Below, piece by piece: positions 22,140 to 26,522 of a DNA stretch of 37,127 nucleotides. Position numbers and translations under genes: made by a program. The DNA comes from a bacterium (GTDB lineage: Bacteria > Patescibacteriota > Dojkabacteria > B142 > OLB20), in contig JAKQLP010000113.1 of NCBI GenBank assembly GCA_029567095.1, positions 1 through 37,127 of the forward strand. Direction: 5' to 3'. Positions within the stretch are counted from its first letter, which is position 1. Every line of letters starts with the position of its first letter. The notes beneath the pieces were generated by a model. It had not been told where the DNA came from, made no database searches, and saw only the letters and a list, made by a program, of their open reading frames with translations.

Positions 22140-23058
22140 AAGGAGGCTGCGGCCGGCATTTCTCTATCTTTTCATTACAGTGGCCGTGTCTTTTACTCTG
22201 GCCTTGCTTTTTGTTGGCTTTACAAAGCCTACTTCCTCCCTCCAGACAGATAATACTATTACCGATAACAGTGAAATCTCGGAAGTTTTATTAGGATCAT
22301 ACGAACAATCTTCCTATTCTTTTTATCCAATCAATAATTTCGATCTGGATTATGAGATCGAACGCAAAGCTCAGCCTGCAAATACAGTCCGGATACCGAT
22401 CCTAACATATCATCAAATTGCCCAATTACCAGCTAATCCACGCACCAGAGATTATTATGTCTCACCAGAAATGCTTGATCAGCAAATGGCCTACCTCTCG
22501 GATAAGGGATATAAAACACTGACGCCTAAGGAATTCTATGATATTTTAGCTTCAGGAAAGAATCCTGAGCAAAAATCAATATGGCTGACATTCGATGATG
22601 GGAATTACAATAATTATCAAAATGCCTTTCCAATTCTGAAAAAGTACAAAATGACAGGTACTTTTTACGTTCCTTCCCATAGAAGTGGCATCAAAGCTAG
22701 CCAATTGAAAGAAATGACGGACGCAGGGATGGTAATCGATCCCCATGGCAAAACACATATGTTGCTTCGCAATGTAACCAATAGCGATGATCTTTATCAG
22801 GAATTGGTTGTCAGCAAAAACTCAATTCAGTCCATGACCGGAAAGACAGTTTACTCCTTTTGTTATCCTGGCTGTGAATATAACGGGAGTGTTACTTCGA
22901 CTCTGGCCTCAAATGGTTACCTTTTAGGCGTTACCTGTGGGCGAAGTATTGATCATAAGCTTAGTAGAAGATTCAGTCTTGAAAGGGTTCATGTTTACAA
23001 TGATATGCAGCACTTTAAAAGCATACTATCCGGAGTTCTGTATTATCCTACTTACTAA
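22129..23058 (+). CDS. Membrane-anchored polysaccharide deacetylase (NodB domain)
   Basis: This 309-residue protein has a basic N-terminus, one membrane helix (about 10-31), a polar stalk and a carbohydrate esterase 4 domain (about 90-300). The first motif is TFDDG with D156/D157. The metal histidines are in PHGKTH (H206 and H210). Further segments are YSFCYPGCEYN and ERVHVYN. It should remove acetyl groups from N-acetylglucosamine in cell-wall or surface polymers outside the membrane. The start lies 11 bases inside tatD. The stop overlaps the convergent phosphatase by 4 bases. Confidence 0.92.
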   Translation: MKYKRRLRPAFLYLFITVAVSFTLALLFVGFTKPTSSLQTDNTITDNSEISEVLLGSYEQSSYSFYPINNFDLDYEIERKAQPANTVRIPILTYHQIAQLPANPRTRDYYVSPEMLDQQMAYLSDKGYKTLTPKEFYDILASGKNPEQKSIWLTFDDGNYNNYQNAFPILKKYKMTGTFYVPSHRSGIKASQLKEMTDAGMVIDPHGKTHMLLRNVTNSDDLYQELVVSKNSIQSMTGKTVYSFCYPGCEYNGSVTSTLASNGYLLGVTCGRSIDHKLSRRFSLERVHVYNDMQHFKSILSGVLYYPTY

Positions 23059-23618
23059 TCAGGAAGCTCAATCCTGAAATAGTCTAGATTTCTAATCTGT
23101 AGTTCTCTACTTTCCTGTTTGCTGTAATGGGCAAATTCTCTTAATGCTATCCTAATTACTCCACTATGAGTGACTACCAGAAAATTCCTTTTATGATACT
23201 GTTTCCTAAGATCTTTAAATGCTTCCCTTACCCTTTCCTCAACTTCCTCAATAGGTTCAGCACCCTTTAGTTCAGGCTGAAAGTTTTTGGTATTACTTTT
23301 TATCTCATTAGGATATTTTGAACAAAATTCATCCCAATCAAGACCATTGAGAATGCCAAAATCTCTTTCAATCAAATCCTCATGCTCTCTGATCTCCAGG
23401 TTTAATAATTCAGCAATAGCCTGAGCTGTTTGTTTTGCTCTCAATAACGGTGAGCTTATTACCAGATCGATGCCTTCTTTTTGCAATTCTAGAGCTCTTG
23501 ATTTTATTGCTTCCAATTCGCTTGTTAATATTGGCTCATCCACCCTGCCTAGTATCCTGCCATTATTATCAACAGTGGTTGCAGCATGCCTCATGATATA
23601 TATGATCATATTTTTCAT
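23055..23618 (-). CDS. Histidine phosphatase (phosphoglycerate mutase-like)
   Basis: The 187-residue protein carries IMRHAATT (RH catalytic motif near residue 9-10) and GRVDEPILT. SPLLRAKQTAQAI, ERDFGILNGL and VVTHSGVIRIAL follow with the second histidine. It resembles alpha-ribazole or broad-range phosphatases (CobC/PhoE type). The substrate is unknown. The frame can be extended to 23672, but that would overlap the divergent gene at 23650, so ATG 23618 (MKNMIIYI) is chosen; ATG 23609 is also possible. Confidence 0.88.
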   Translation of the reverse strand: MKNMIIYIMRHAATTVDNNGRILGRVDEPILTSELEAIKSRALELQKEGIDLVISSPLLRAKQTAQAIAELLNLEIREHEDLIERDFGILNGLDWDEFCSKYPNEIKSNTKNFQPELKGAEPIEEVEERVREAFKDLRKQYHKRNFLVVTHSGVIRIALREFAHYSKQESRELQIRNLDYFRIELPD

Positions 23619-23649
23619 GTTAATATGAAATAATTTTAACAGATTCACA

Positions 23650-23853
23650 ATGCAGGAACAGACAGTTCTCATCGACTATATCAACTGGGAGGGTAAAAGA
23701 GGAATTAGAAAAATAACGCCTATAAAAATATTTTTTGGCAGTACCAAATGGCACAAGGAGGCTCAATGGCTTTTAAAGGCCATGGATATTGATAAAGGGG
23801 AAGAAAGGGACTTCGCACTGAAAGATATATTAAAATGGGAACAGGCTAATTAA
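23650..23853 (+). CDS. Mini WYL-like protein
   Basis: This 67-residue protein has the pattern of a short WYL-like beta domain: IDYINWEGKRGIRKITPIKI, then FFGSTKWHKEAQWLLKAMD and a closing DFALKDILKWE. The W-x-H and QWLL segments recall ligand-sensing WYL domains, but no DNA-binding domain is attached. Related stand-alone proteins occur in bacteria without known function. It is divergent from the phosphatase with a 31-base shared control region and converges with valS. Confidence 0.72.
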   Translation: MQEQTVLIDYINWEGKRGIRKITPIKIFFGSTKWHKEAQWLLKAMDIDKGEERDFALKDILKWEQAN

Positions 23854-23861
23854 AGCACTGT

Positions 23862-26522
23862 TCATTCCGGCCATTTTTCATACATGATCGTAGCTGATTC
23901 CCCTTGGATCTTAGGCATTTCCTGCCAAATTCTTTCTGTGATAAAAGGCACAAAAGGGTGTAATAACTTAAGATAGGTCTTAAGAATGTACACCACACTC
24001 CATTTGGCGCTGGCCATGCTTTTTAATTCATCCTGGGAAGTATTTATGGGGTTTCCCTCTCTATCTCTCGTATACACTCTGGGTTTGATCTGTTCCAGGT
24101 ATAGATCACAAAATTCATGCCAGAACATCTGGTATAGCTCCTCTGCAGCTAAGCCTAATCTAAATTTTGATATCTGCACTCCGATCTTTTTGGAAAGCTC
24201 AATGGTTTTATTGATCTGTTGAATATCTAAGGGATTAAGATCAGGCTTTTGATTGGGATCTAATTCACCTACAATTCCCATCACGAATTTACTGGCATTC
24301 CAAATTTTATTTAAAAATCTTTTATACCCTTCCAGTTTTTCATAACTAACAGGATATCCAGCACCAGCTTTGTTTCCTACCAAATAGAGAAGACGTAAAG
24401 AATCTGCTCCATATTTTTCGATCACACTATCAGGCTCGATCACATTGTTTTTGGATTTGCTCATCTTTTGACCATCTGGAGCTTTGACCAAGCCATGCAG
24501 ATACACATCTTTAAACGGAGCCTTGCCTTCATGATAAATTCCCAGCATTATCATTCTACTTACCCACAGCTCGAGAATATCATAAGCTGTTTCCATGACT
24601 TGAGTTGGGTAGAAAGCCTCCAAAAGACCGTTAGCCTTTAGAGTAGCATAAGGCCATTGCCCCGAACTAAACCAAGTATCAAAGACATCGTTATCCTGGA
24701 TCCAGCCTTCCTGGGGAGAGGTAATACCAACAGCTGCCAATCCTTTGTTTACAGCATCATTAATGTCAACAACTTTTTCTCCGGCAATACTTTGAACTAT
24801 TTGACCATTCTCATCTATAGTTTCTGTTATTTCCCCTTTATACCAAACCGGGATACGATATCCCCACCACAAAGACCTGGACACAGGCCAATCTCTTAGA
24901 TTATTCATCCAGTTAAGGTATTTCTTGGTCATATATCCGGGATGGATCTTTACTTCTCCTTTTTCCACAGCTTTAATGGCGGGCTCTTTCAGCTTTTCAA
25001 CATCCAGAAACCACTGTGAAGACATAATTTGTTCAACCACAGCTTTTGATCTCTCTCCAATCATAATGCTCTGCTCGATCTTTTCGGTTTTGTATACAAG
25101 ATTTCCCAGGTCGGCCTTTACCACCTGTCTACACTGTTCGGTTGCTAAACCCAGATATTTCTGGGGGATGGGTCCAGCCATCTTAGCTTCTTTATCAATT
25201 ATATTAATATACCCCACGGCCTTTGCAGGATTTTGGGCATTCCATTCATTCATAATGACATAGTCATCATAAGCATGGGCAGGAGTGAGCTTAACTGCTC
25301 CGGTTCCAAATTCCTTGTCCACTCTGACTGAGGAAATAATGGGAATAGGCCTATTAACGATCGGTAACAAGACCTGTTTGCCAATAAGCCCAGAATACCT
25401 TGGGTCAGCCGGGTTAACAGTAACTGCAGTATCGCCAAGCATAGTCTCTGCTCTTGTTGTGGCTACACTAATGTAGTCATCTTCTAAAAGATCCAATAAT
25501 TCGATAGCAATTAAACCATTTTTTTCAATCAAGTCTGCATAACCCGGTTTCAGACTCTCATAAACATCCCTTAATTCCTGTACCGAATTAAGATTTCTGC
25601 CAAACACTTTGGTCCATTCAACTTTGATAAAAGCCTCTTCCAGATTCTTGTATATTTCGATGTTCCCTGCTTTCTTGTACACATGATGTACACCCTCTCC
25701 ACTCTTTTCTACTGCAATTAGTAAATCTCCTGTTTTAATATTCCCAAAAAATCTATCTTTTTCTTCAGGATTTAAAGCTCTGGTCTCAATGCTCTTAGTG
25801 CTATCACGCACCATGCTCAGGACCTGCTGGTCGTAGAAAGATAATGCCCAGACCATATTCTTAATCAAAGGGTATTTGATATATACTAATTCGCTTTCTC
25901 TACTGATCCTCTCGGTATCAATATCTGCTAAAGTAGTTTTAGCTTTAGGATCCCAATTAACGATCCTTACACCTTTGTAAACCATCTTATCCTGGAACAT
26001 CTTTATAAATGTCCCTAATATGGTATCGACTATTCTTGGATCCAAGGTAAAGACATTTCTATCATAATCACTTGATAAACCTATCCTCTGTTCATCAGCC
26101 ATAATACGAGGCATGATATTTATAAAGTGGTCATAGGCTTTTTTATAGAATTCATCTCTACCCATTTCTAACTTGCCCTTACCCTCTTTTTCAATGAAGA
26201 TCTTCTCAACCACTACTTCACCTTGAATCCCAGCGTGATCTTTTCCTGGCTGACCTAATACTTTTTTCCCTAACATCCTATTAAAACGCAGCATCACATC
26301 CTGATAAGCATATCCTGATACATTACCAATATGAGGCCTCATATAGGCATTGGGAGGGGGGTTAATGATGCAGAAAGTTTCCCTTTCATCCTGTTTCACT
26401 TCCTCTTCACTGAGTAAGCCTCTTTGGGCATGGTATTCCGGCTTGAAAAGTTTTCCATCTAGCCAGTATTTTAAAATTCCTGGCTCTTCCTGCACAGGAT
26501 CGTATGCTCCTTTAGTTAACAT
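23862..26522 (-). CDS. valS: Valyl-tRNA synthetase with inserted ASCH-like domain
   Basis: This 886-residue class I synthetase charges tRNA-Val. The signatures are PHIGN (residues 63-67) and KMSKS (about residue 685). The editing-domain motifs VATTRAETMLGDTAV and GTGAVKLTPAH show CP1 proofreading. The CP1 domain is interrupted at about residue 222-347 by an ASCH-like module. The C-terminal coiled coil usual for ValS is missing: the protein ends right after the anticodon-binding domain. Without the insert it would have about 760 residues. Expression is probably controlled by the T-box leader at 26543-26727. No other gene shares the transcript. Confidence 0.95.
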   Translation of the reverse strand: MLTKGAYDPVQEEPGILKYWLDGKLFKPEYHAQRGLLSEEEVKQDERETFCIINPPPNAYMRPHIGNVSGYAYQDVMLRFNRMLGKKVLGQPGKDHAGIQGEVVVEKIFIEKEGKGKLEMGRDEFYKKAYDHFINIMPRIMADEQRIGLSSDYDRNVFTLDPRIVDTILGTFIKMFQDKMVYKGVRIVNWDPKAKTTLADIDTERISRESELVYIKYPLIKNMVWALSFYDQQVLSMVRDSTKSIETRALNPEEKDRFFGNIKTGDLLIAVEKSGEGVHHVYKKAGNIEIYKNLEEAFIKVEWTKVFGRNLNSVQELRDVYESLKPGYADLIEKNGLIAIELLDLLEDDYISVATTRAETMLGDTAVTVNPADPRYSGLIGKQVLLPIVNRPIPIISSVRVDKEFGTGAVKLTPAHAYDDYVIMNEWNAQNPAKAVGYINIIDKEAKMAGPIPQKYLGLATEQCRQVVKADLGNLVYKTEKIEQSIMIGERSKAVVEQIMSSQWFLDVEKLKEPAIKAVEKGEVKIHPGYMTKKYLNWMNNLRDWPVSRSLWWGYRIPVWYKGEITETIDENGQIVQSIAGEKVVDINDAVNKGLAAVGITSPQEGWIQDNDVFDTWFSSGQWPYATLKANGLLEAFYPTQVMETAYDILELWVSRMIMLGIYHEGKAPFKDVYLHGLVKAPDGQKMSKSKNNVIEPDSVIEKYGADSLRLLYLVGNKAGAGYPVSYEKLEGYKRFLNKIWNASKFVMGIVGELDPNQKPDLNPLDIQQINKTIELSKKIGVQISKFRLGLAAEELYQMFWHEFCDLYLEQIKPRVYTRDREGNPINTSQDELKSMASAKWSVVYILKTYLKLLHPFVPFITERIWQEMPKIQGESATIMYEKWPE
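25482..25859 (-). other. ASCH-like domain inserted in the ValS editing domain
   Basis: Residues 222-347 interrupt the ValS sequence between KYPL and YISVATTRAET, which are adjacent in normal ValS. The insert has the ASCH signature. STKSIETR (K243, E246, R248) corresponds to GxKxxExR; the first glycine is replaced. NIKTGDLLIAV corresponds to the IxxGDxI strand. YKNLEEAF, a SVQELRDVYESL helix and NGLIAIEL close the barrel. ASCH domains are PUA-like folds linked to RNA binding; what it does in ValS is unknown. Confidence 0.75.

Follow-up and report, generated by a model that had tools for sequence, protein, structure and literature searches.

A predicted ASCH domain nested in the editing domain of a Candidatus Dojkabacteria valyl-tRNA synthetase, and further guest domains in class Ia synthetases of Patescibacteria

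What is a segment of about 125 extra residues doing inside the editing domain of a valyl-tRNA synthetase (ValRS)? The question was raised by valS in a stretch of 37,127 nucleotides, here called the window, which covers positions 1 to 37,127 of contig JAKQLP010000113.1 (assembly GCA_029567095.1; genome G000). The organism belongs with Candidatus Dojkabacteria (WS6), in which the nearest named relatives with the same ValS architecture were found, for example WS6 OLB20. The host gene (23862-26522, minus strand, as are all features of the window described below) encodes 886 amino acids. In NCBIfam the protein matched PRK05729 (E = 2.4e-217, score 724 against a curated cut-off of 704) and TIGR00422 (667 against a cut-off of 612), which are scores at the ValS equivalog level. 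The top PDB match of the AlphaFold2 model of the full-length protein (pLDDT 85.4) was in Foldseek the ValRS 1GAX of T. thermophilus.

The signatures of the host were intact. Class I signature 1 was read directly as H64-I-G-N67 (26322-26333), the final H of HIGH being replaced by N throughout the taxonomic class, and H64 and G66 were invariant in alignment A3. Signature 2, K686-M-S-K-S690 (24453-24467), was also read directly and was invariant in the same alignment. The editing-site motif T355-T-R-A-E-T360 (25443-25460) follows immediately after the insert, and its residues T355, R357, E359 and T360 were invariant as well. The window ValS thus shares the catalytic core, the CP1 editing domain, the anticodon domain and both signatures with the standard bacterial ValRS (T. 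thermophilus 1GAX; TIGR00422), but differs from it by the ASCH domain at the first CP1 hairpin and by the absence of the C-terminal coiled coil. The latter is a trait of the whole class: at most 15 residues were found beyond query residue 884 in 45/45 aligned ValS open reading frames (ORFs), a few of which end at contig edges. Because all 45 lacked the coil, with or without an insert, its loss does not depend on the insert, and the proposal of the first-pass annotation that the insert replaces the lost coil is not sustained.

The extra segment had been placed at 25482-25859, between KYPL and YISVATTRAET, and these coordinates were correct. They correspond to residues 222-347 in the first CP1 hairpin. 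In a phmmer comparison with 1GAX, residues 47-218 and 349-886 were aligned and residues 219-348 were left unmatched, with just 4 residues of 1GAX between the two blocks. The segment was mostly absent from the 45 ValS ORFs of the class, and close relatives devoid of it read KYPL(short loop)ITVATTRAET at the insertion point, the short loop in G003 being 'KYPLKQEIDGINHITVATTRAET'. The insert lies approximately 10 residues ahead of the editing residues R357 and T360.

Searched as a single sequence, the insert of the window displayed no significant match in Pfam, NCBIfam or PDB, and homologues were needed for its identification. The curated cut-off of PF04266 (ASCH; 21.2 bits) was exceeded by the orthologues from G001 and G031 (29.9 and 25.1 bits) and was also passed by the insert of G035, and the window copy was part of the same alignment at 42-44% identity. 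A profile made from 33 related domains matched three archaeal proteins in the PDB, PH0355 (E = 4e-22), PF0455 (6e-21) and PF0469 (5e-15). The isolated insert was modelled by AlphaFold2 with a pLDDT of 93.1 and a pTM of 0.85. Its folded core, residues 224-344 (25491-25853), was predicted to consist of a strand (224-229), a helix (232-239), two strands (267-272 and 280-291), helices within 294-335 and a final strand (337-344), and the order of these elements was the same in the full-length model. Foldseek matches of the insert model in the PDB were led by PH0355 (E = 2e-7, target TM 0.79), PF0455 and ZmASCH (E = 4e-4), with EF3133 and other ASCH/PUA-like structures as further matches, at 12-14% identity. 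Based on homology and structure prediction, the insert is an independent ASCH (PUA-like) domain nested in CP1. This bears out the ASCH-like domain named in the first-pass annotation, and the models gave a separate ASCH fold instead of the mere extension of CP1 that was raised there as the alternative.

Alignment of 21 embedded and 11 free-standing copies located the ASCH signature, of the GxKxxxxR type, at K243-S-I-E246-T-R248 (25779-25796). In the window copy the G of this motif is replaced by Ser; most other copies have Gly. K, E and R were present in 21/21 embedded copies; among the free-standing ones K and R were found in 11/11 and E in 10/11. The loop L250-N-P-E-E-K-D-R-F-F-G260 (25743-25775) was diagnostic for the embedded subfamily: L, N, P, R, F and G occurred in all 21 embedded copies and E254 in 20, whereas each loop residue was found in only 0-4 of the 11 free-standing relatives. 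Although the embedded copies, from ValS and LeuS, are only 29-44% identical to the window copy, twelve positions were invariant among them (K243, E246, R248, L250, N251, P252, R257, F259, G260, K273, N335 and G336). With the ASCH family PF04266 (PH0355/PF0455, ZmASCH, E. coli YqfB and human TRIP4/ASC-1) the window copy has in common the fold, the element order, K-x-x-E-x-R and the terminal G-x-x-A-I-E strand. It differs in being nested in ValS and in its LNPEE..R[FY]FG loop, which is rare among the free-standing relatives compared.

Single-stranded RNA cleavage and nucleic-acid binding have been reported for ZmASCH, together with the GxKxxxxR motif and the ribonuclease cleft residues Tyr47, Lys53 and Ser128 (PMC5615036). 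YqfB hydrolyses N4-acetylcytidine, for which Lys21, Thr24 and Arg26 are needed, by a Lys-Thr-Glu triad with Thr24 as the nucleophile (PMC6972931). When K-x-x-E-x-R was read against K21-x-x-T24-x-R26, the position of Thr24 was occupied by Glu (E246) in 21/21 embedded copies. Amidohydrolase chemistry of the YqfB kind appears unlikely in the insert, judged from the motif, because the nucleophile Thr is replaced by Glu.

An ASCH domain was found at the CP1 site in 7/45 aligned ValS ORFs of the class, those of the window genome G000 and of G001, G012, G030, G031, G035 and G038. Six further genomes of the class have the same in-frame domain at this position, so the insert is not a chance event. The ValS of G367 also carries an ASCH domain at a comparable position, after 'SRQLWWGHRIPVWY'. 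On a ValS core tree built without the insert columns, the presence of ASCH required 7 changes for the 7 ASCH-bearing rows, which is a scattered distribution. Two genomes of one genus differed in this trait, the ASCH domain being present in G038 and a short loop taking its place in G053, with flanks of 82-86% DNA identity on both sides.

The guest tree did not follow that of the host. A branch (93/73) set all 21 embedded copies apart, and those of LeuS formed one group (99/94). The G030 copy was located with the copies of G000 and G001, whereas in the host tree G030 neighbours G038. In AU tests, a guest tree in which G030 was held with G038 was rejected (p = 0.023), and so was a host tree in which G000, G001 and G030 were held together (p = 1.5e-40). 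The guest alignment is short (131 columns), and on its side the conflict has a p of approximately 0.02. Monophyly of the ValS copies of ASCH was not rejected (p = 0.46). This comparison of sequences points to a probable passage of the guest from one ValS gene to another, within the limits of so short an alignment. A single ancient insertion with nothing but later losses was not favoured, given the conflict between the two trees. A viral origin was set aside, as no relative was found in viral_contigs.

A scan of 84,980 genomes with patterns from the insert alignment gave 21 loci with the diagnostic motif, all of them in LeuS or ValS and two read with genetic code 25; the patterns were derived from the embedded copies, so that a subfamily devoid of the motif would escape them. 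Free-standing ASCH relatives that lack it occur widely in the phylum. In the window genome itself, a search for a free-standing ASCH of the embedded family found none. The LeuS hosts belonged to Moranbacteria, Buchananbacteria, Kerfeldbacteria, Nomurabacteria, Liptonbacteria, other Paceibacterota, Absconditabacteria, Gracilibacteria and one Pacearchaeota. The ASCH site in LeuS differs from that in ValS and comes after 'SRQRYWGEPIPLVHC', and the same LeuS proteins also contain NUDIX, Ham1 and Ser_hydrolase domains.

Some single LeuS loci deserve mention. The 1355-residue LeuS at L090:3964-8028 (plus strand) contains three guests, a serine hydrolase, ASCH and Ham1. In the Absconditabacteria LeuS of L087 (frame of 6001, plus strand, code 25), the ASCH domain is accompanied by what by eye seems a DUF559-like segment, 'RQHPFGRYIVDFYCDELKLAIEIDGKIH'. 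The Pacearchaeota LeuS at L081:4306-7515 (plus strand) is archaeal and carries the same embedded ASCH subfamily as the bacterial Patescibacteria, which suggests either a transfer between domains of life or a binning error.

The first CP1 hairpin of ValS was found to accept other domains as well. It holds a HAD hydrolase in G007, a small barrel together with Ham1 (ITPase) in G042, and ASCH together with Ham1 in G035. The insert of G009 exceeded the Pfam threshold for pyrophosphatase and has relatives in seven more ValS. In these eight pyrophosphatase-like inserts the segment of the Asp motif of family I pyrophosphatases was missing in 6/8 and altered in 2/8. Most copies of the pyrophosphatase-family domain in the ValS CP1 of L004, L021, L024, L025, L031, L034, L037 and L038 have lost the catalytic Asp segment; it is a guest kept as structure. 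G023 has a 75-residue small-barrel insert and the barrel of G042 is degenerate, and both may be remnants. A second guest site follows residue 604 (24711-24713), which is empty in the window ValS. In sister genera it harbours a histidine phosphatase (G003, G004 and G030) or a serine hydrolase and a histidine phosphatase (G002, G005 and G007). A third site near residue 519 contains a GNAT-like domain in G048.

Directly downstream of valS, the window encodes a free-standing histidine phosphatase (23055-23672; His_Phos_1, E = 9.4e-40). The six relatives closest to it in the class (E = 2e-37 to 2e-18) were all located inside ValS, in ORFs of 965-1281 amino acids, and every free-standing relative in the class was weaker than these. 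The gene and its ValS-embedded kin in sister genera represent a gene and domain pair in both states. The phosphatase could be either the source of the ValS guest or a guest since released.

IleS is the third host. In G042, G031 and G035 it carries a NUDIX domain in the first part of CP1, in the place corresponding to the ValS site; the three IleS of Dojkabacteria relatives with NUDIX in CP1 were recorded at L099:1665-5153 (minus strand), L100:927-4340 (plus) and L101:3-3350 (plus). The IleS of the window genome (1320 amino acids; L140:849-4808 on contig C46, minus strand) contains two inserts, neither of which was recognised by Pfam. One is a CYTH-like domain in CP1, identified by a PDB search in which a profile made with two orthologues matched NE1496 (PDB 2FBL, E = 4e-10), a CYTH protein. 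The other is a histidine phosphatase in which RHG has decayed to RNG, identified by comparison with the intact orthologue of G005. Judged by its length (890 amino acids), the LeuS of the same genome has no insert.

How, then, is the insert best explained? Homology and prediction indicate a ValRS with intact signatures and a complete, separately folded ASCH domain with a conserved predicted pocket in the first CP1 beta-hairpin. The comparison of hosts shows it to be one of a set of guests gained and lost at fixed permissive hairpins in the ValS, LeuS and IleS of Patescibacteria. We consider it the somewhat favoured reading that the insert is an autonomous guest domain with an intact predicted pocket, exchangeable among class Ia synthetase hosts. 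Such a guest would most likely be an independent worker, as it keeps K, E, R and G of the pocket and the LNPEE..R[FY]FG loop alike in both hosts. The same loop occurs in two hosts with different sites and therefore most likely serves the domain itself, not one host contact. The pocket would most likely bind a nucleotide, a modified base or RNA while the domain is tethered to the synthetase, the tether would let it be expressed and located together with an essential enzyme, and the reaction and editing of the synthetase would be largely unaltered.

Contact with tRNA-Val, as the first-pass annotation suggested, would instead make the domain an auxiliary module that helps ValRS hold its tRNA in charging or editing. 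PUA and ASCH domains are related in fold and tied to RNA (PMC7641849, PMC5615036), the insert lies close ahead of R357 and T360, the same subfamily is present in two editing synthetases, and the conserved pocket would be compatible with contact to tRNA on the host. The proposal is weakened, however, by the HAD, Ham1 and pyrophosphatase-like domains in the same hairpin, for which no tRNA role is expected, and by the placement of the LeuS copies at another host position. Sister species manage without the domain altogether, and the class lacks the coiled coil regardless of the insert. On balance we regard a tRNA-holding role as rather unlikely.

The decayed guests count against the autonomous-guest reading, since the phosphatase in the organism's own IleS and the pyrophosphatase-like inserts without their motif indicate that some guests are retained purely as structure. 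The ASCH insert might accordingly be a neutral passenger or structural relic with no present function, which slipped into a permissive hairpin and was kept as clean removal is rare. The patchy presence and the possible remnants in G023 and G042 would agree with this. Yet K243, E246, R248, G336 and the LNPEE..R[FY]FG loop were kept in essentially all 21 embedded copies in spite of their low identity, which is unexpected without selection on the pocket, and makes a functionless relic improbable. An assembly or frameshift artefact has a negligible chance of being the answer, as the ORF is uninterrupted and in frame in seven genomes of several families. The same applies to an intein: the insert starts with IKNMVW, has the ASCH fold throughout, and was found to have no splice-junction residues, intein-type ends or Hint domain.

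The autonomous guest fits a wider, moderately favoured picture in which ValS, LeuS and IleS of Patescibacteria serve as a chassis with a few permissive hairpins, where small autonomous domains, mostly enzymes, have repeatedly been inserted, exchanged, moved between hosts and left to decay. ASCH, Ham1, NUDIX, CYTH, HAD, histidine phosphatase, serine hydrolase, pyrophosphatase-like and GNAT domains appear in its repertoire, and the ASCH subfamily of the window would be one known only in the nested state.

The first-pass annotation knew of no described ValS of this architecture, and the open-access full text, with few subscription papers covered, gave no ValRS or LeuRS with ASCH and no nested domains in Patescibacteria synthetases; the nested ASCH is thus provisionally undescribed. 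The insertion modules of class I synthetases, such as CP1 and the leucine-specific domain, are likewise nested in loops of the catalytic fold, but the survey describing them counted modules common to more than half of the members of a family and left modules within editing domains, ValRS among them, undissected (PMC10810186). The guests described here are, in contrast, patchy, exchangeable and common to ValS, LeuS and IleS. NCBIfam NF040702, an IleRS with an N-acetyltransferase domain, is a precedent for a class Ia synthetase that houses an enzyme domain as guest, although with another guest and another host, and the window ValS matches it via general synthetase homology only. The lineage-specific insertional domains of RNA polymerase (BEAN and HABAS) are also polyphyletic insertions in an essential universal enzyme (PMC11515920); those are small insertional folds, whereas most of the guests here can be recognised as members of enzyme families.

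Synthetases are present in all organisms and under strong constraint, and in three of them whole, exchangeable domains sit at fixed hairpins. In these genomes a synthetase gene may for this reason pass for a fusion or a misassembly. The embedded ASCH is a concrete and testable subfamily with a conserved pocket that lends itself to assays of the domain by itself, and the guests together offer a natural series for how an essential enzyme comes to accept a domain within it, whether that domain gains a role by tethering and how it moves between genes.
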